Shown here one piece after another: positions 6,433 to 17,585 of a DNA stretch of 33,289 bases. Made by a program: the position numbers and the translations under genes. Below the pieces are notes generated by a model. It saw only the letters and a list, made by a program, of their open reading frames with translations. It ran no database searches and had not been told where the DNA came from. The stretch lies in the NCBI RefSeq assembly GCF_001589285.1, contig NZ_JEMA01001063.1, positions 1-33,289 on the forward strand, in the 5' to 3' direction. This stretch comes from Sorangium cellulosum. GTDB taxonomy: Bacteria > Myxococcota_A > Polyangia > Polyangiales > Polyangiaceae. Position 1 is the first letter of the stretch. Each line of letters begins with the position of its first letter.

Positions 6433-9348
<2,916 letters not shown>

Positions 9349-10497
9349 CTAGCTGAGCGCGCCGCCCTCGACGTGGAAATCACGGCGCTCCGAGGAAAGT
9401 ACGCCCGGCGTGACGATGAGGTCGCGCCGCGTGGTCGTCAGAAACACCTGGCCGCGCGCCATCCCGAGGAACAGGAACAGCGCGGCCGTGCGATCGGGGT
9501 CGAGCTCGCTCGATACATCGTCGAGCAGCAGAATCGGCTCTACGCCCCGGACGGACGCGATCGCGGCGGTCTCGGCGGCCTTGAGGGACAGCGTGAGGGC
9601 CCTGTGCTGTCCCTGGGAGGCGACAACGCGGGCAGGGTGCCCGTCGAGCTCGAGCAGCAGGTCGTCGCGGTGCGGACCGAACCCGGCGGTCGGCCGGTGG
9701 GCGTCGCGGCGCCGCTGCTCGCGCAGCGCCTCGCGCGCCTGCTCGGCGTCCCCGGAGCCGCCCGGCGCGTACCGCGCGGCCAGCCTCAGGTTCGGCGCCG
9801 CGATGCGCGCGAAGGCGTGCGTGAGCTCCGGCGCGAGCGCCTGGACGGCGGCCTCGCGGGCGCGGGTGAGCGCCGCCCCGTGGACGGCGCAGAGCTCCTC
9901 GAAGGCGTCGAGCTCCGAGCTCGCCTGCGCCGCCGCGCCGACGCCGCGGTGGAGCAGCTCGTGCCGCGCGCGGAGCGCCTGCGCGTAGCGGGCCCGGTGG
10001 TCGGCGCTCTGCGGGTCCATGAACAGCGCCAGCCGATCGAGCAGCGTGCGCCGCGCGCTCGCGGGCCCTGTCGACAGCGCGAGCTCCTCCGCGTGGAAGG
10101 CGACGACCGGCGATCGCGTCGCGAAGCTCGCGAGGCTCGGCGGCCGGTTCCCGTCGATCTTCACGACGCACCGCTTGTTCTCCACGGCGGCGGTCTGCTC
10201 GCGCGCGAGCGGCATCAGCGCGTCCCGGCGCTCGACGAACCGCGCCCGCGCGCTCGCGACCGAGGCGCCGTGGCGCACGAGCTCCGCGGCCCGGTGCGTG
10301 CGAAAGCTCCTGGAGGTGGCGGCGAAGTAGATCGCCTCGAGCAGGCTCGTCTTGCCCTGCCCGTTGTTGCCGGCGATCACGTTGAGGCGCGGCGCCGGCT
10401 CGACGTCCACGCGCCCGAGGTTGCGGAACTCGCGGATGTGGAGCCGCTCGAGGAGCAGGCTCGGGGTACGTCCCAGGAGCTCGTCGGGCGCGCTCAA
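9349..10497 (-). CDS. recF: DNA replication and repair protein RecF
   Basis: The 382-residue product is a RecF-type SMC-like ATPase: LHIREFRNLGRVDVEP at the N-terminus, Walker A AGNNGQGKTSLLEAIY, a Q-loop and coiled region, signature ASQGQHRALTLSLKAAE and Walker B PILLLDDVSSELD. RecF binds gapped DNA and helps RecO/RecR load RecA. No ATG or GTG fits the N-terminus in this frame. The best start is a TTG at 10497 that overlaps the dnaN TGA (TTGA), giving MSAPDELLGRTPSLLLERL, so translation is probably coupled to dnaN. Reading further upstream runs through dnaN in another frame and is not real. Order and strand match the conserved dnaN-recF-gyrB group. Confidence 0.92.
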   Translation of the reverse strand: MSAPDELLGRTPSLLLERLHIREFRNLGRVDVEPAPRLNVIAGNNGQGKTSLLEAIYFAATSRSFRTHRAAELVRHGASVASARARFVERRDALMPLAREQTAAVENKRCVVKIDGNRPPSLASFATRSPVVAFHAEELALSTGPASARRTLLDRLALFMDPQSADHRARYAQALRARHELLHRGVGAAAQASSELDAFEELCAVHGAALTRAREAAVQALAPELTHAFARIAAPNLRLAARYAPGGSGDAEQAREALREQRRRDAHRPTAGFGPHRDDLLLELDGHPARVVASQGQHRALTLSLKAAETAAIASVRGVEPILLLDDVSSELDPDRTAALFLFLGMARGQVFLTTTRRDLIVTPGVLSSERRDFHVEGGALS

Positions 10498-11624
10498 ATC
10501 CGCATCGGCATGACGACGGCGACGTAGCTCTGCTGGTTCGACTCGCTGCCGGGACGGAGCACGGCAGGATCGAGCTCGCCGGAGATGCCGAGGATGATCT
10601 CCTCGTCGTCGATGGCCGCGAGCACGTCGAGGAAGTACTTGGCGTTGAAGCCGATCGTGACCTCGGGCCCGCTGTAGTCGACCGACAGCTCGTCGAAGCC
10701 CGCGCCGGTGTCCGGGCTCTCGCTGGTGATGCGGAGCGTCCCCGGCGCGATCGACAGCTTCACGCCGCCGGTGCGGTCGTTCGCGGCGAGCGCGATGGCC
10801 TTGAGCGCCTCGGCGAACTGGACGCGCGGCGCGCGGACGGAGCGCTCGGTGACGGACGGGATGACCTGCTGGTAGGGCGGGAACTGCGCGTCGACGAGCT
10901 TCACCGAGAACTGCATCCCGGCGATGCTGAAGAAGGCGTTCGGCCCGCTCTGGGTGATGGCGACCATCGGCGTCTCCTTCTCGGCGCGCGCCTCCTCGGC
11001 GAGCCGGCGGAGCTCCGTGATCGCCTTGAGCGGGATGAGCATCGTCGCGGTGGCGGAGCTGCCGGAGACGGTCGCCTCCATCTTGGACAGGCGGTGGCCG
11101 TCGGTGGTCACCATCCGGACGCGATCGCCGGCCCACTCGAACAGGGCGCTGTTGACGTGGGCGCGCGTCTCGTCGGTGGAGATCGAGAAATGCGTCCGTG
11201 AGATCAGGAGCGCGAGCTGCTCGACGGGCAGCTCCAGCGAGGGCGCGTCGTGGGCCGGGACGGGGAGCTGCGGGAACTCCGAGCCGGGGAGCCCGGGGAG
11301 CGTGTAGCGCCGGGGCGATCCGACCGCCTTGAGCGACGTGTGAGCGCCCTCGGTGGTGGTGATCTGGATGGGGCCGTCGGGCATCGCTTTCACGCGCTCG
11401 AGCAGGTCCCTGGCCGGGATCGCGACAGAGCCGCCGGTCTTGATGTCCGCCTGCGTCTGGCCAGTGACCCCGAGGTACAGGTCGGTCGCGGCGACGCGGA
11501 CGGCGTTGCCGTCCGCGGCGAGCAGGACGTTGGCGAGCGCAGGCATGGCGCTCTTCTTGTCCGCCACGCCTTGGCAGCGCGCGACGAGGCGAAGCAGATC
11601 TTTCTTGGGGATCACAAGGTCCAT
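10494..11624 (-). CDS. dnaN: DNA polymerase III beta subunit (sliding clamp)
   Basis: The 376-residue protein has the three repeated clamp folds. The N-terminus is MDLVIPKKDLLRLVARCQGV, followed by LANVLLAADGNAVRVAATDLYLG, VRMVTTDGHRLSKME in the middle domain, and the C-terminal YVAVVMPMRI, equivalent to the classic MPMR(L/I) end. The clamp encircles DNA as a dimer and tethers polymerase III and other repair proteins. The ATG at 11624 is preceded by CGGAG at a good distance. Its stop overlaps the recF start. Upstream lies a gene-free, relatively AT-rich stretch; in many bacteria dnaA precedes dnaN, but here no dnaA is seen on either strand. Confidence 0.96.
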   Translation of the reverse strand: MDLVIPKKDLLRLVARCQGVADKKSAMPALANVLLAADGNAVRVAATDLYLGVTGQTQADIKTGGSVAIPARDLLERVKAMPDGPIQITTTEGAHTSLKAVGSPRRYTLPGLPGSEFPQLPVPAHDAPSLELPVEQLALLISRTHFSISTDETRAHVNSALFEWAGDRVRMVTTDGHRLSKMEATVSGSSATATMLIPLKAITELRRLAEEARAEKETPMVAITQSGPNAFFSIAGMQFSVKLVDAQFPPYQQVIPSVTERSVRAPRVQFAEALKAIALAANDRTGGVKLSIAPGTLRITSESPDTGAGFDELSVDYSGPEVTIGFNAKYFLDVLAAIDDEEIILGISGELDPAVLRPGSESNQQSYVAVVMPMRI

Positions 11625-12048
11625 GGCCGACTCCGGAGCGCACCCTTTAGCAGGGTTATCGTCCGGGCGTGGGTCGGAAATGAGCGCTCCGATAACCTTG
11701 CGCGACGCCTCTTCTTTCCATGAAATAGATAGATAAAGACAACGTCTTCGTCGTAGGCGCTGTGGAGGGCGGGGATAACTCGGAATGATTAATAATTTCG
11801 ATGGGTTAGAAGCGAACGCCCTGGGGTAAATGGACCGTCCTCAGGGGTAGGAGGAAAGGGGACAGCCGGAGGGCGGCTCGTCTCCCCCGCTTTGTCCCCA
11901 GGGTTGTCGAAGGGGTTATCCCCAAGATCCCCCTCGACGAATGAGGGAATGTAGAGCGAGCACAGCGATCGCGCCCTCGACCTCGTGCGCTGCGCGGTTC
12001 CGACCGGCACCTGGATGGAGTAGTGCAGAATGTACGGACTTGAGTTCG
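11625..12048. other. Candidate replication origin (oriC) region between dnaN and kinase gene
   Basis: The 424 bases carry no gene. Two AT-rich patches stand out from the very GC-rich surroundings: 11711-11742, and 11784-11798 (AATGATTAATAATTT, 14 of 15 A/T). Nonamers close to the DnaA box TTATCCACA occur as TTATCCCCA at 11916-11924, TTGTCCCCA at 11892-11900 and TTATCCCCG on the minus strand at 11770-11778. Looser TTATCG-type copies lie near 11656 (+) and 11688 (-). All share C for A at position 7. The position beside dnaN-recF-gyrB and 4 kb from two parS sites fits an origin. The promoter of dnaN must also lie here, so part of the AT-richness may simply be promoter sequence. No perfect DnaA box was found, which limits confidence. 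Confidence 0.4.
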
Positions 12049-13725
12049 GTGCGGTGCATCCACTGCGGTGACCACCACGACGTGGGGGGGGTCGTGTGTC
12101 CAGCGACCGGGCTCCTCATTGAGCCGAGCGGAGCTCCATCGTCGCGTGGGGGAGGGCGGGCAGGCGCCGCGGTTGTGGATTCCGTGCTGCGACCCGCCGC
12201 GCCGTCGGCCAGGTCGGCGTCTCCCTCCTGGAGGGGCGCTCCCTCCGCGGCCCCCCGCCTGGCGCCCCGCGGTGCCACGCGCCCTGAGCCAGGCGCCGGG
12301 GCCTCGCGATCGCCGTCCCCCTCCGGGGCGGACTTGCGGATGGCCGCGTGGTCCAGGGGCGACGGCGAGGGCGCGACGTCGCTCGGCCGCTCGCTCCTCG
12401 GCCACGTGATCGGCGACAAGTACGGGGTCACCGCGATCATCGGGGAGGGGGGTATGGGCGCCGTCTACGAGGCGGAGCACCTCCAGATCGGGCGGCTGGT
12501 CGCTGTCAAGGTGATGCATGCGCGGGAGACGCAGCAGCGCGAGGCCATCTCGAGGCTGGAGCACGAGGCGCGCGTCGCGGGGCGCATCGGTCACCCGAAC
12601 ATCTGTGAAGTGTACGACATCGGGCGACTTCCTGACGGCAGCCCCTACCTCGTGATGGAGCGCCTGCACGGGGAGACGCTGGCGCAGAGGATCGAGCGCT
12701 GCGGCGTGGTGCCGCCGGGCGAGCTCATCGACATCATGCTTCAGGTCCTCTCGGCCCTGGTGACAGCGCACGAGCGGGGGATCGTTCACCGCGACCTGAA
12801 GCCGGACAACATCTTTCTCTCGGAGCGCACCGGGATGCTGCCGGTCGCCAAGCTGCTGGATTTCGGCATATCCCAGGCTTCTGGCGTGGACGGGGCGGCG
12901 ATGGATCTGACCCGCACCGGCATGGTGATGGGCACGCCGTACTACATGGCGCCCGAGCAGGCTCGTGGGGACGTGGAGCTTGACCACCGGCTCGACCTGT
13001 GGGCTGTCGGCGTGATCCTCTACGAGGCGCTGACCGGTCAACGTCCATTCGTGGCGCGCAACTACAATGCGCTGCTCATCCAGATCCTCACGCTCTGGCA
13101 CCTCCCTGTGATGGAGCTCGACCCGTCGATTCCGCCCGCGTTGTCGAGGCTCGTGGATCGTGCCCTGGCGAAGGCGCGGGAGGACCGGTTCCAGAGCGCC
13201 CGCGAGTTCCAGGAGGCGCTGCGGCGGTTCAGGAGCCAGGTGCCGGTGCCGCAGCGGCGCCGGCCGGAACGCCTCGCCCTGAAGAGCATCGTCGAGGATC
13301 GGAACGACGATGGGACGATGATGTTTGCTCGGGTCGTGGGCGACAGCGGCGCGGGTGATCCTGGGCAGATCCTCGTCGCGAGCGGTCGCGTGCCGCCGGA
13401 GCCGGCGAGGCACGGACCCCGGACGTCGGCGGGAAAGGGGATCCAGCTACGCCACAGCGTGTGGTCGTCGCGAGCTCTCGAGGTGGCGACAGGCGGGGCC
13501 CCTGGTCGCCGGCGGAGCGAGCCCGCGCCGGAGCTTGTGGGCGGCCAGACCCGGGAGGATGAGGCGGAGGACCGGCCGACGATCCCGTCGCTGCATCCGT
13601 TCGTGCGGGGCGACGATCTGTCCGACGACGCCGAGGCGACGCTCGTTGATCCGACGCCGTTCCCGGAGGACATGAGCACGCTCATCTGGGATGAAGGTTG
13701 CGCGCGGGACGGCGACCAGGGCTGA
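12049..13725 (+). CDS. Soluble Ser/Thr protein kinase (Hanks type) with N-terminal Cys motif
   Basis: All main kinase motifs are present: glycine loop IIGEGGMGAVYEAEH, catalytic Lys in LVAVKVMH, HRDLKPDNIF, DFGISQA, activation segment GTPYYMAPEQ, and DLWAVGVILYEALTG. The kinase domain covers roughly residues 125-395. No transmembrane helix follows; the last 160 residues are a low-complexity tail, so it should act in the cytoplasm. I chose the GTG at 12049 because it gives MRCIHCGDHHDVGGVVCPATG, resembling the short zinc-ribbon-like start of many myxobacterial kinases (CxxC then CPxTG). An ATG at 12340 would delete this and start just before the kinase fold; the frame is open back to 11941. 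The substrate is unknown. The neighbouring dnaN and candidate origin may or may not be relevant. Confidence 0.88.
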   Translation: MRCIHCGDHHDVGGVVCPATGLLIEPSGAPSSRGGGRAGAAVVDSVLRPAAPSARSASPSWRGAPSAAPRLAPRGATRPEPGAGASRSPSPSGADLRMAAWSRGDGEGATSLGRSLLGHVIGDKYGVTAIIGEGGMGAVYEAEHLQIGRLVAVKVMHARETQQREAISRLEHEARVAGRIGHPNICEVYDIGRLPDGSPYLVMERLHGETLAQRIERCGVVPPGELIDIMLQVLSALVTAHERGIVHRDLKPDNIFLSERTGMLPVAKLLDFGISQASGVDGAAMDLTRTGMVMGTPYYMAPEQARGDVELDHRLDLWAVGVILYEALTGQRPFVARNYNALLIQILTLWHLPVMELDPSIPPALSRLVDRALAKAREDRFQSAREFQEALRRFRSQVPVPQRRRPERLALKSIVEDRNDDGTMMFARVVGDSGAGDPGQILVASGRVPPEPARHGPRTSAGKGIQLRHSVWSSRALEVATGGAPGRRRSEPAPELVGGQTREDEAEDRPTIPSLHPFVRGDDLSDDAEATLVDPTPFPEDMSTLIWDEGCARDGDQG

Positions 13726-13749
13726 AGCGGGCGTGAGCAGAGGAGCGAG

Positions 13750-14406
13750 GTGAGCGCTGTGGGTACGGTCGAGCGCGTCGTGGCGCGCGGCATCGTGAAG
13801 ACGTACGGGACGACGGCGGCGCTGCGCGGGGTGAACGCGACGATCGAGGCGAGGCAGTTGACGCTCATCGAGGGCGCGAACGGGTCTGGCAAGTCGACGC
13901 TGCTCGGGATCCTGGGCACGGTGGTTCGTCCCACCTCGGGCACGATCGTTTACGAGCCGTTCGGCGAGGACGCTGGGCTGGCCCGCGGCAGCATCGGCTG
14001 GCTCTCGCACGAGTCGCTGGCGTACCCGGATCTCTCCGGTCGGCAGAATGTGGAGCTGGCGGCCCGTTTCCATGGTCTCGATGCTCACGAGGCGTGGCGC
14101 TACGCGGAGGAGCGCTTCGAGCTGGGCAGCTTCGCGACGAGGCCGCTCCGCACGTGCTCGCGGGGCCAGCGACAGCGCATCGCGCTGGCGCGAGCGCTCG
14201 TGCACCATCCGTCGCTTGTGCTGCTGGACGAGCCCACCACCGGTCTGGACCGCTCCGGGGTGACGCGGCTCCTCGCCGTGGTCGACGCGGAGGTGGCACG
14301 AGGCGCTGCCGTGGTTGTCGTCTCGCATGAGCCGGAAGTGTTCCGGGGTCGAGCCGCTGCCCGTCTCATGCTCGAGCGGGGCCGCGTCGTCGCCGCGGCT
14401 TCCTGA
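13750..14406 (+). CDS. ABC transporter ATP-binding protein, CcmA-like
   Basis: The 218-residue ATPase has Walker A EGANGSGKSTLLGILG, a Q-loop region around IGWLSHES, signature CSRGQRQRIALARALVHHPS, Walker B LVLLDEPTTGLD and switch His in VVVVSHEPE. Short length and overall pattern resemble CcmA, the ATPase of heme-exporter and related multidrug-type systems. No membrane partner lies next to it: upstream is the kinase 24 bases away and downstream is a decayed IS21 element. Insertion of that element may have removed or separated a permease gene. The GTG at 13750 has AGGAG four bases upstream; a GTG at 13759 is a less likely alternative. The substrate cannot be assigned. Confidence 0.85.
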   Translation: MSAVGTVERVVARGIVKTYGTTAALRGVNATIEARQLTLIEGANGSGKSTLLGILGTVVRPTSGTIVYEPFGEDAGLARGSIGWLSHESLAYPDLSGRQNVELAARFHGLDAHEAWRYAEERFELGSFATRPLRTCSRGQRQRIALARALVHHPSLVLLDEPTTGLDRSGVTRLLAVVDAEVARGAAVVVVSHEPEVFRGRAAARLMLERGRVVAAAS

Positions 14407-14555
14407 ACCCCGGCCTGGGGAGACTCGGGTAGCTCCAGGGGTGGATGAGGAAAGCGGGGTACCTCCTCGCCGGTCGTCGCGTCGCCGAGGCGCCATTCTG
14501 GTCGGTCGAGATCCGCAATCACGACGGCGATCCGGCCAGCGCGCCCACAGGGGGC

Positions 14556-14772
14556 TGGTGGGATCGAGCCCGGCCTCACGTACGCGGTTATCGGTCGCGC
14601 TCGCGTCACGGCGCGCGACCTCGTCGGTGAGCAGCATGAGCAGCATCTCCTCGTGCCCCATCGACTGCTTCTCGGCGAGCAGGAGCCGCTCATGCAACGT
14701 CGCTGCGATGCGGCCGAGGCGCAGGCGCTTGAGCGCCGTGACGAGCGCAGGGTCGACTTCGCTCGAGCTCAT
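14556..14772 (-). pseudogene. istB: istB remnant, IS21 transposition helper, truncated
   Basis: From the ATG at 14772 the frame gives an IstB N-terminus: LKRLRLGRIAATLHERLLLA, then EEMLLMLLTDEVARRDA and a short piece ending near LDPTSPLWARW. After about 70 residues similarity stops, before the AAA+ ATPase core with its Walker motifs, so the protein cannot work as a helper ATPase. The open frame continues backwards through the ABC gene but that is a shadow. Intact IstB proteins are about 250 residues. Confidence 0.75.
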
Positions 14773-15490
14773 CACGCCTCCTCCTTCGTGGCGGCAGCCG
14801 CCAGCGTGCGCGTCGCGAAGTGCTCGGTGCTGCGCGCGAACCACGGCGTGGGGAGCGCAACCACCGTTCATCCGAGGGCGGTGACGCGGGCGCCTTCGCC
14901 GTCTCGAGCATACGCGCCACGCGCTGCACGTCGACGACATCGAACGCGAGCGCGCTCTGGCAGATCGCCTCGACGCGCCCGTTGCCGAACTTGCTGCACA
15001 GCCGCAAGAGCGCATTGACCAGCCGCTGCGACTCCAGGGAGCGGCACATCGCGTCAGTCCAGTGCGGCATGTCGAACGGCGCTTTCGGCGCCGGCTTCAT
15101 GGCGCTCCTCTCGCGCGCCTCGAACACCTCGCGCGGCACTTCGCGCGTCGTGCCGTGGACGCGCGCACCGGCGACGTCGCGACACCACCGCTCAGCGGAC
15201 GCGCGCGCCTCGTCGAGGCTGATGAACGACTCGCCGTCGAACCAGCTCTCTCGCACGTACGCGACATGATTCTCGACACGCGGCTTCTCTTTTGGCGACC
15301 TGACACGCGCGGCATCCACCAACAGCCCGCGCGTCCGCGCGTAGTCGAGGAACGCCGGCACGAGCACGGGGGCGAGCTCGTCGGCGCGTGGCACGATGGC
15401 CTTCTGTTGTCCGGGAGGATCACGCGCGCCATCGCGCCGAAGACCCTCCACGCCGCATCCGGGCCCGCGCACACCGCCGCAGATGCCACG
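14772..15490 (-). pseudogene. istA: istA remnant, IS21 transposase, two frameshifts and internal deletion
   Basis: Three pieces in three frames give IstA-like sequence. The first (about 15490-15410) ends AWRVFGAMARVILPDN. The second (about 15410-14870) runs KAIVPRADELAPVLVPAFL, then RVRSPKEKPRVENHVAYVRE and CQSALAFDVVDVQRVARML. The third (about 14865-14772) gives VVALPTPWFARSTEHFATRT and ends AAAATKEEA at a TGA overlapping istB. In the second piece PHWTDA runs directly into SLESQRLVNALLRL; intact relatives have on the order of 100 residues between these parts, so there is an in-frame deletion. The N-terminal helix-turn-helix and first DDE residues are absent. This is a dead transposase. Confidence 0.75.
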
Positions 15491-15548
15491 AGGCGCCGCC
15501 TCGTCGTCGCGGCGCACGAACCGGTGAGCCCACCGGGGAGGCCTGGAT

Positions 15549-15564
15549 AGTTTCACGTGAAACA
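15549..15564. promoter_or_regulatory. parS: parS centromere site (copy 1)
   Basis: AGTTTCACGTGAAACA matches the widely conserved ParB-binding parS palindrome TGTTTCACGTGAAACA at 15 of 16 positions; the inner 14 bases are a perfect palindrome. It lies in the gap between bioD and the IS21 remnant. ParB bound here would nucleate the partition complex that segregates origins. Confidence 0.88.
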
Positions 15565-15663
15565 GGGAGGGTCAGCCTCTCTGCCGCCGTCGTTGGCGCG
15601 CCGGCGAACGGAATCCAGAATCGCGCGCCGTGGCTGCGGTCGCTCTCCTCGCGAGACGAACTC

Positions 15664-16359
15664 TCAGAGTCCGAGGCGCGCCAGGGCGAGCTGCGCTGAG
15701 GCGAGCGAGGCCGGTGCCGTGGGAGCGGCGCGCGGCATCACGACGACGTTCGACGCGATGCCGAGCGACTCGAGCTCCCCAGCATTGGTGCCGGTCGATG
15801 CATCGGACGCCGCCGGCGGATTCAGCAGCACCAGGGCCGGCGGCAGGCCGGGGGCGAGCGCGCGCAGGGCCAGCAGGCAGCAGGCGACCTCGTGGAGGAT
15901 GCCGAGCCGGTCGAGGCCGACCAGCACCAGGGCATCCGGGTCAAGCGCGCGCACGAGATCGGCGTTCGTGAGGTTCGGTCCAAGCGGGGAGACGAGCGCC
16001 CCGGCGCTCTCGACGATCGCCACGGGAGCCGGTTGCCTGGCGACCCAGGCGGTCGCGACGTCCAGCGAGATCGCGAGCCCACACAGGCGCGCGGCCAGGT
16101 GAGGGGAGACGGGCTCGGCAAAGCGGTAGGGCGCGGCTTCCGGTCGGATCGAGCTGACGAGGGCGAGCTGCTCCGCGTCGGTCGTCGACGTGCCGTCCAC
16201 GCCCGACTCGATGGGCTTCAGGCCGCAGACCTGGGCACCGCGCGCTGCCAGCGCCGCGACCAGGGCGACAGACGCATGCGTCTTGCCCACGCCCGTCCCG
16301 GTGCCGACCACGGCGACCCGGACCTGCCCTGTTTCACGTGAAACAGGACGGCCCCTCAC
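15664..16359 (-). CDS. bioD: Dethiobiotin synthetase
   Basis: The product has the BioD P-loop VAVVGTGTGVGKTHASVALV, LKPIESGVDG (carbamate/substrate-binding Lys), SPHLAARL, and VESAGALVSPLG, the counterpart of the ExAGG motif. BioD closes the ureido ring of dethiobiotin from 7,8-diaminopelargonate, CO2 and ATP. The chosen start is a GTG at 16359 that overlaps the bioF stop (GTGA), giving 231 residues and a short N-terminal extension, MRGRPVSRETGQVRVAVV. An internal GTG at about 16302 would begin right at the P-loop strand (MVGTGTGVGKT). With the longer start the parS palindrome lies inside the gene and encodes VSRET. bioA and bioB are not in this window. Confidence 0.92.
   Translation of the reverse strand: MRGRPVSRETGQVRVAVVGTGTGVGKTHASVALVAALAARGAQVCGLKPIESGVDGTSTTDAEQLALVSSIRPEAAPYRFAEPVSPHLAARLCGLAISLDVATAWVARQPAPVAIVESAGALVSPLGPNLTNADLVRALDPDALVLVGLDRLGILHEVACCLLALRALAPGLPPALVLLNPPAASDASTGTNAGELESLGIASNVVVMPRAAPTAPASLASAQLALARLGL
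16330..16345. promoter_or_regulatory. parS: parS centromere site (copy 2, perfect)
   Basis: TGTTTCACGTGAAACA is a perfect 16/16 match to the bacterial parS consensus, and the palindrome continues two bases on each side (CC...GG). It lies just past the bioF stop and inside the bioD reading frame if bioD starts at 16359. It is 766 bases from copy 1 and about 4.3 kb from the candidate origin. Confidence 0.93.
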
Positions 16360-17522
16360 CGCATCGCCTCGCGGAACCCTGCGAGCGCGCGCTCGACGTC
16401 CGTTTCGGAGAGGGAAGCGCTCGACGTGATGCGGAGGCGCGACGTGCCCGCCGGAACCGTCGGCGGCCGGATCGCCTGGACCATGACGCCCTGCCGCGCG
16501 AGCCGCTGCGACATCTCCACAGCAACGCCAGGCGACTCCAGAACCCAGGGGAGGATGGGACCCGAGGACCCCGGGAGCAGCCGGGCTCCCAGCTCCCGCA
16601 GGCCAGAGCGGAGCCGATCGGTGACCCTCGCCAGGCGCGCCCGGCCTGCATCGTCCGCCGCGGCGCGGCGCACGCGATCGACGGTGGCGAGCGCCACCAT
16701 GGGGCTGATACCGGTCGAGAACACGAAGCTCCTGGCGCGATTCCACAGGTAGGTCCGCAGCGTCGAGGAGCCCGCCACGAACGCGCCGTGAAGGCCAAGG
16801 GACTTCCCGAGGGTGCCAACGAGGACGTCCGGGCGCACACCCGCCTCGGCGCACAGTCCCGCGCCGCTCGGTCCGGAGACGCCAAGGGCGTGCGCCTCGT
16901 CCACGATCAGCGCAGCGTCGTGACGGTCGCAGAGCTCACGAAGGCCGCGGAGATCGGGCGTATCGCCATCCATGCTGAAGAGCGACTCGGTGACGACCCA
17001 TCGGCGGCGAGCGCTCCCGGCGCGGGCGAGGGCGCCCTCGACCGCCGCCAGATCACCGTGGGGCACCACCTCGACGGTCGCCCTCGACAGACGGCATCCG
17101 TCGATGATCGACGCGTGGTTCAGCGCGTCCGAAACGATGACATCCCCGGGCCGGGCCAGCGCGGCCAGGGTACCGACGTTGGCCGCATACCCTGATGAGA
17201 ACAGGAGTGCCGCCTCCGTCCCGAGCCAGGCGGCCAGCGCGCGCTCGGCGATCAGGTGGGTCTCATGCGTCCCGCTCACCAGCCGCGACGCCCCGGCGCC
17301 GCTCGCAGCGTCGTCCGCTGGAAGCCAGGGGAGACGGGCGTACCCGAGGTAATCGTTGGAGCACAGCACCAGCATCCCGGCGGGAGCCGCGACCAAGGGT
17401 GGGGTGCGCAGCAGCCCGGCGCGGTTCAGCTCCGAGAGCTCGTCCTGGAGGTGGCGCAGGGCGCTCATGCCCTCGGGGGTGGGGCTGGGGATACGAACAA
17501 CGTCGTCCACGGGTGCAGGCAT
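16356..17522 (-). CDS. bioF: 8-amino-7-oxononanoate synthase
   Basis: This is a fold-type I PLP enzyme of the alpha-oxoamine synthase family that condenses pimeloyl-thioester with alanine in biotin synthesis. Motifs seen: SNDYLGYARLP, SGTHETHLIAERALAAWLG, LLFSSGYAANVG, SDALNHASIIDGCRLS, ESLFSMDGD, IVDEAHALGVSGPSGAG and the PLP-lysine segment GTLGKSLGLHGAFVAG. The ATG at 17522 follows GGAG at good spacing and gives 388 residues; a TTG at 17543 and an ATG at 17468 are alternatives, the latter closest to E. coli BioF. The 4-base overlap with bioD shows an operon. Glycine C-acetyltransferase (Kbl) and other synthases of the family are similar, but adjacency to bioD settles the assignment. Confidence 0.94.
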   Translation of the reverse strand: MPAPVDDVVRIPSPTPEGMSALRHLQDELSELNRAGLLRTPPLVAAPAGMLVLCSNDYLGYARLPWLPADDAASGAGASRLVSGTHETHLIAERALAAWLGTEAALLFSSGYAANVGTLAALARPGDVIVSDALNHASIIDGCRLSRATVEVVPHGDLAAVEGALARAGSARRRWVVTESLFSMDGDTPDLRGLRELCDRHDAALIVDEAHALGVSGPSGAGLCAEAGVRPDVLVGTLGKSLGLHGAFVAGSSTLRTYLWNRARSFVFSTGISPMVALATVDRVRRAAADDAGRARLARVTDRLRSGLRELGARLLPGSSGPILPWVLESPGVAVEMSQRLARQGVMVQAIRPPTVPAGTSRLRITSSASLSETDVERALAGFREAMR

Positions 17523-17585
17523 GGCATCTCCAGTCGGCAGCAAGGCGGGTCAGCACGGTCGCCCGGGAGCGGCGGGGACTCCAGC

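Follow-up and report, generated by a model that had tools for sequence, protein, structure and literature searches.

The window analysed here is a 33,289-base stretch that makes up the entire contig C1061 of a Sorangium cellulosum draft genome (11,858,831 bases in 1269 contigs; listed completeness 100, contamination 7.94). Proceeding from the biotin genes bioF and bioD, it contains in order the first of two short palindromes (site 1), an IS21-like transposase remnant, an ORF for an ABC-type ATPase, a kinase gene on the opposite strand and the dnaN-recF-gyrB cluster (Table 1). The last three genes are 91-96% identical and keep their order in So ce26, So ceGT47 and So0157-2, the three named Sorangium strains used for comparison, and the kinase gene is found beside the candidate origin in these strains and in one further relative, G036. 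To judge from the reading frames, bioD most likely starts with the GTG at 16359, overlapping the stop codon of bioF. By eye, the ORF at 13447-15015 on the minus strand, which overlaps the transposase remnant, appears to contain an IstB piece.

Table 1. Features of the window discussed in the text
Feature	Position	Strand	Remarks
gyrB	6433..8961	-	TIGR01059, 934 bits
recF (start approximate)	9349..10461	-	TIGR00611, 280.6 bits, residues 398-738 of ORF 9349-11643
dnaN	10494..11624	-	TIGR00663, 229.9 bits
Candidate oriC	11640..11930		Putative origin; AT peak, TTATC words, inverted pair
Ser/Thr protein kinase gene	11941-13725	+	Adjoins candidate origin
IS21-like IstA remnant	14690-15556	-	NF033546, 77.9 bits, below cut-off 160; abuts site 1, between dnaN and bioD
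parS site 1	15549..15564		AGTTTCACGTGAAACA, 1 mismatch to consensus; 14-bp perfect palindrome 15550-15563
bioD, dethiobiotin synthase	15664..16359	-	TIGR00347, 80.5 bits, just below cut-off 83.3; PF13500, 78.8 bits, above cut-off 27
parS site 2	16330..16345		TGTTTCACGTGAAACA, perfect; palindrome reaches 20 bp, 16328-16347
bioF, 8-amino-7-oxononanoate synthase	16356..17543	-	TIGR00858, 374 bits, below cut-off 426; PF00155

In the ParABS system, as outlined in a section of a review (PMC7333895), ParB is loaded at parS, from where it spreads, and ParA is what moves it. Site 2 agrees with the generic parS consensus TGTTTCACGTGAAACA at 16/16 positions and site 1 at 15/16, and the sites also fit the palindrome pattern tGTTTCACGTGAAACa. 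Within the window these are the only two matches to TGTTTCACGTGAAACA at ≤3 mismatches (the maximum over 100 shuffles being 0), and the same two are the only ones in the draft genome at ≤2 mismatches. Their common 14-bp core GTTTCACGTGAAAC (15550-15563 and 16331-16344) has no third copy in the 11.86 Mb, and GTTYCACGTGRAAC has no further exact match anywhere in the draft. Calculated from the window's own composition, the number of cores expected in 11.86 Mb ranges from 0.004 (single bases) to 0.011 (third-order Markov), against the two observed. An exact copy of the Myxococcus-type sequence GTTCCACGTGGAAC was absent from the genome; near-matches to it comprised two places with one mismatch (C442 and C499) and 78 at ≤2 mismatches, compared with 69 for the reversed control, and were set aside as chance-like.

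These results uphold most of what the preliminary description had read from the window. It reported two near-identical palindromes, one perfect and one at 15/16, 766 bases apart (from the end of site 1 to the start of site 2), and both the coordinates and the mismatch count are confirmed, as is its judgement that a double match by chance is very unlikely. An even spread of copies over the genome was not found, both lying at one locus, and its suggestion that more copies might lie outside the window finds no support in the draft, which holds no other exact core site. All three genes of the dnaN-recF-gyrB cluster, placed some 4 kb away, were verified, the start of dnaN being 3.9 kb from site 1. 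The statement that the sites flank bioD is loose: it applies to site 1, ~100 bases beyond the end of the gene (stop at 15664), but site 2 lies inside bioD, where it is read as VSRET at codons 6-10.

Among 59 genomes, the window's own counted, exact GTTYCACGTGRAAC is present in 44 and absent from 15; its reversed control gave three matches in total, one each in three genomes. Positions are known for 43 of the 44 (G053, without an exact GTTTCACGTGAAAC, was left out): 12 of these genomes have a single site and 31 have two or more, and in 30 of the latter all sites lie on one contig within 16.1 kb, the exception being G014, with two sites on two different contigs. The core GTTTCACGTGAAAC mostly occurs in 1-4 copies per genome, with 8 in G023. 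Where parS and dnaN could both be placed (26 genomes), they share a contig in 16 and not in 10. One site in G026 (C1053:6598-6611) is a hybrid, GTTCCACGTGAAAC, of which one half is Myxococcus-like and the other canonical.

The window's own genome has one TIGR00180 match and one PF02195 match above cut-off, both to the same gene on contig C254, and a ParA gene adjoins it. Two candidate CTP-binding motifs were recognised by eye in this ParB, GERRWRAAQ and ENVQRADLNPIE. The structure used for alignment was 6t1f, which we take to be Caulobacter ParB. Aligned to it, positions 173, 179, 184 and 201 (numbering of PMC7383237), which bear on specificity, are occupied by R, S, R and G; in the excerpted text of that paper R173 and G201 are described as absolutely conserved in ParB, and RXXG as parS-specific in contrast to the QKKR of Noc. 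The outer two residues are R and G, and parA is adjacent to parB, in all 30 of the best ParB loci, for which one best match was used per genome (G029 and G038 have further ParB-like matches above cut-off, and other genomes weaker ones). None of these 30 loci, each 3.3-3.6 kb long, contains a parS. Around the window genome's own parAB, 18 kb of sequence yielded three matches at ≤3 mismatches compared with 3.05 expected, that is, none beyond chance.

The parS sites and parB lie on different contigs in 23 of the 29 genomes with both placed, including that of the window, which gives no distance. The remaining six are single-contig genomes, three of them from one genus, and here parS and parB are 4.4-6.8 Mb apart; as a share of the circle, the distance of parB is 36-49% to parS and 3-13% to a dif-like site in all six. 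The usual (not obligatory) origin-proximal position of parAB is thus seen in none of the six single-contig relatives. The literature covered, mostly papers available without subscription, gave no account of a parS embedded in bioD, nor, for this order, of a parAB operon remote from parS.

In the same six genomes dnaN lies 3.9-32 kb from parS. The distance between dnaA and parS ranges over 0.72-1.44 Mb among the five members of the window's family; in G048, which belongs to another family, it is 0.11 Mb. In G037, G038 and G051, from other families, no more than ~3 kb separates dnaA from dnaN. The place of dnaN therefore looks ancestral, and this comparison of gene positions points to a departure of dnaA in the Sorangium family; the separation is a trait of that family and not of the whole order. 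Both dif-like sites and DnaA boxes were sought by pattern. The best dif-like match has one mismatch in five genomes and two in G048. A separation of 48-50% of the circle is found between it and parS in 6/6, and between it and dnaA in 1/6 (G048). Specifically, its distances from parS and dnaA are 49.5% and 40.9% in So ce26, 49.7% and 38.1% in So ceGT47, 48.6% and 41.6% in So0157-2, 48.0% and 45.6% in G036, 48.7% and 41.6% in G024 (exact length), and 48.9% and 50.0% in G048 (rounded length, error at most ~0.3). At ≤1 mismatch, 0.001-0.009 matches are expected per genome (four computed). At ≤3 mismatches there is no excess over the reversed control (G024 6 vs 8, G036 2 vs 2, G048 1 vs 1), and for this reason the dif claim rests on the single one-mismatch match in each of five genomes and the two-mismatch match in G048. 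Several near-dif words CGCATAAGGCCCGTTCTGTC are also scattered through So ce26, So ceGT47 and So0157-2, and may be part of a mobile element.

GC skew was measured in 20-kb samples from two genomes, G036 (40 samples) and So ceGT47 (60 uniform samples, then 80). The skew is weak, with a best-fit R2 of 0.25-0.44, and the genome of a further strain, So ce56, is described in a passage of PMC8538405 as being without the usual inversion. In G036 the best origin lies at 0.68 Mb (parS at 0.72) and the terminus at 6.32 Mb (dif-like site at 6.19); the log-likelihood gain of parS over dnaA is 4.7-4.8 on three measures, with none on gene orientation, and the block fit with unlimited arm length does almost as well at 0.38-9.91 Mb. 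With 60 samples of So ceGT47 the best origin is at 10.02 Mb (raw) or 9.63 Mb (intergenic); dnaA beats parS by 2.5 log units on raw skew and by 2.3 with gene orientation included, and parS beats dnaA by 5.0 on intergenic skew. In this sample the orientation-corrected GC3 skew fits almost equally well at 10.16, 10.91 and 0.2 Mb, and polar k-mers mostly flip at 9.97-10.16 Mb and are mixed at 10.35-10.91 Mb. With 80 samples the best origin falls at 10.02-10.14 Mb, 130-250 kb off parS (9.89 Mb), and parS is preferred over dnaA by 6.0 (raw), 7.3 (intergenic) and 14.9 and 8.6 (ranks). The 20 added samples, placed in and around the disputed interval, are what turned the raw measure, and that interval is therefore over-sampled. 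Raw skew in So ceGT47 is +0.0145 ± 0.0043 in the 20 samples beyond 9.99 Mb and +0.0116 ± 0.0067 in the 22 beyond 9.91 Mb, with +0.0212 and -0.0178 in the undisputed right and left arms. AT skew in this genome gave no signal beyond permutations. The fitted terminus of So ceGT47, at 4.00-4.34 Mb, encloses the dif-like site at 4.29 Mb, and the agreement of the skew termini with the dif-like sites is an independent check on the latter. Weak as it is, GC skew favours an origin near parS and dnaN in both genomes.

Immediately upstream of dnaN, the segment listed in Table 1 as candidate oriC includes the most AT-rich 150-base stretches of the window (0.50 compared with a mean of 0.28) and five of its six TTATC words. 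The inverted pair TTATCCCCG/TTATCCCCA, 146 bases apart, is shared by the strains So ce26, So ceGT47 and So0157-2; its counterpart in G036 consists of two copies of TTTTCCCCA with the same inverted arrangement, at a spacing of 156 bases. Two or more TTATCCCC words per 300 bases were seen only in the window and these three named strains, in ~2.5 Mb sampled, in which these loci were included by choice. The TTATCCCC pair accompanies an AT peak upstream of dnaN, and its words differ from consensus DnaA boxes; G024 has four box-like words within ~100 bases upstream of dnaN. In So ceGT47 (L194, 751-1461) the inverted TTATCCCC pair upstream of dnaN occurs three times, with a spacing of 278 bases. Searches for TTRTCCACA boxes gave 15 in So ceGT47 (control 11) and 14 in G036 (control 17), with no cluster of at least three and none at dnaN; a close pair is present at 11.195 Mb in G036. 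Replication most likely starts within a few kb of parS, with the AT-rich stretch upstream of dnaN as the candidate origin.

The exact consensus, the clustering of copies at one locus, a parS-type ParB encoded with ParA, and an ori-ter axis that passes through the locus in relatives together bear out the preliminary reading of this stretch as the chromosome partition region, and the palindromes are very probably the chromosome centromere of Sorangium. The retention of the palindrome at one bioD codon in seven genomes, described below, also counts in favour of this. On the evidence of sequence comparisons, we hold with considerable confidence that they are genuine chromosomal parS sites at the origin pole, that replication starts near dnaN and not at dnaA, and that parAB lies nearer the terminus in the relatives. 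Taken by themselves the sites are parS of the ordinary kind. What varies is the layout, meaning where origin, dnaA and parAB are placed, and we infer that the strain of the window shares this layout with its relatives.

An improbable alternative is that the parS sites are real and replication nonetheless starts at dnaA, which would put the centromere 0.7-1.4 Mb from the origin in this family. In its favour are one consensus box TTATCCACA a short way upstream of dnaA in both G000 and So ceGT47, a TTTTCCACA in G036 and the preference of the 60-sample raw skew of So ceGT47 for dnaA; however, it is parS, in 6/6 genomes, that has the dif-like site opposite it, compared with 1/6 for dnaA, and the skew of both G036 and the 80-sample So ceGT47 prefers parS. 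An origin at dnaA would also sit poorly with the situation in Pseudomonas aeruginosa, where, according to a passage of PMC5098823, parS must lie in a ~650-kb zone around oriC; the same passage relates that parS was moved 650 kb in Vibrio cholerae and 400 kb in Caulobacter crescentus, with no defect reported there.

It is far less probable still that the palindromes are operators at which a transcription factor controls the biotin genes and not centromeres. In favour of this, site 2 lies at the bioF-bioD junction, and 39 loci from 42 relatives with known site places, taken with ~1.5 kb on each side of the first site as far as the contig permitted, include bioF or bioD in 26 cases; the other 13 show no bio gene, six of them being shortened by a contig end. 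Yet the sites occupy several different places in bioD or bioF coding sequence, or lie beside other genes. In seven genomes, namely that of the window, four of the same genus (So ce26, G003, So ceGT47 and So0157-2) and two from other genera of the family (G034 and G036), the palindrome stands at bioD codon 6 in the same frame with varying flanking codons; in seven other genera it is within bioD near residue 66-80 in a different frame (FHVK), and in four genomes within bioF near residue 71-78. In the window, the codons of site 2 include five successive ones ending in A or T, in a gene whose remaining codons have a GC3 of 0.88. The exact ParB consensus, the presence of a parS-type ParB in 30/30 genomes searched and the lack of other copies in the genome speak against an operator. 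A BioF search of the genome contigs returned 80 loci, of which five were used (L210-L214), and one of these, L214, is without parS. In G013 (L040, ~1501) the bioF frame appears to stop at a TGA within parS itself.

It is scarcely credible that the locus came with an integrated plasmid or island and served its partition. The transposase remnant abutting site 1 and the absence of parAB nearby might be taken to point that way, but the neighbours are core genes of conserved identity and order, synteny reaches in part beyond the genus, the same kind of locus occurs in other families of the order, and only one ParB match was obtained in the genome.

As a refinement of the parS reading and not an alternative to it, site 1 might be the relic of a tandem duplication of bioD, with its embedded parS, that subsequently decayed; the chances of this appear to us evenly balanced. 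So0157-2 has a broken second bioD (L210, 12020-12713; 80.2% over 723 bases) with a second parS at its start, and So ceGT47 a partial second bioD (86.7% over 248 bases) with one parS. The site spacing is similar in the window (781 bases), So ce26 (783) and So0157-2 (832), which by itself is weak evidence, and no bioD remnant was detected past site 1 in the window or So ce26.

If the locus is the origin pole, as we propose, replication would begin within a few kb of parS, at the AT-rich stretch upstream of dnaN; ParB made from the distant parAB operon would load on the two parS sites, and ParA would then separate the duplicated region after replication. Such a split layout of parS and parAB can work because proteins diffuse. 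We also lean towards the broader view that a centromere and origin at dnaN/bioFD with parAB in the terminus half is a stable arrangement of the order to which Sorangium belongs, with dnaA displaced as well in the Sorangium family and parS maintained within the frames of biotin enzymes. The parS sites would provide an independent marker of the origin for some of the largest bacterial chromosomes, in which dnaA misleads. The records of So ce26, So ceGT47 and So0157-2 have the start of dnaA at base 58, and an analysis treating their base 1 as the origin would be in error by ~1.3-1.4 Mb. Whether parAB needs to be close to its centromere could be put to a natural test in this layout. If the layout is as proposed, replicating cells would have a lower dosage of parAB relative to parS and the supply of ParAB would be tied to late replication.

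The nearest known system in a myxobacterium is that of Myxococcus xanthus, with which the present one shares ParA and ParB encoded side by side and a parS-type ParB. Among solved structures, 7bnk, 7o0n and 7bnr are the best relatives of this ParB; we take them to be from M. xanthus. The two systems differ in that Sorangium and its relatives have few copies of GTTTCACGTGAAAC, with megabases between parAB and parS in the single-contig relatives, whereas M. xanthus, according to the relevant passages of PMC3899335 and PMC3778016, has a single parS-parAB locus 30-35 kb from ori, in which 22-24 parS of consensus TGTTCCACGTGGAACG lie upstream of parA. The generic bacterial parS is matched in its sequence and in forming one genomic cluster; unlike it, the sites described here are linked to dnaN-recF-gyrB and not to parAB, and in many relatives lie inside bioD or bioF coding sequence. 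Finally, an origin beside dnaN and far from dnaA is consistent with the prediction for So ce56, in which an algorithm placed oriC beside dnaN and nearly 2 Mb from dnaA (Gao and Zhang 2008, as summarised in PMC8538405); the present analysis extends this to other strains and genera, and adds parS, dif and parAB, which do not figure in that summary.
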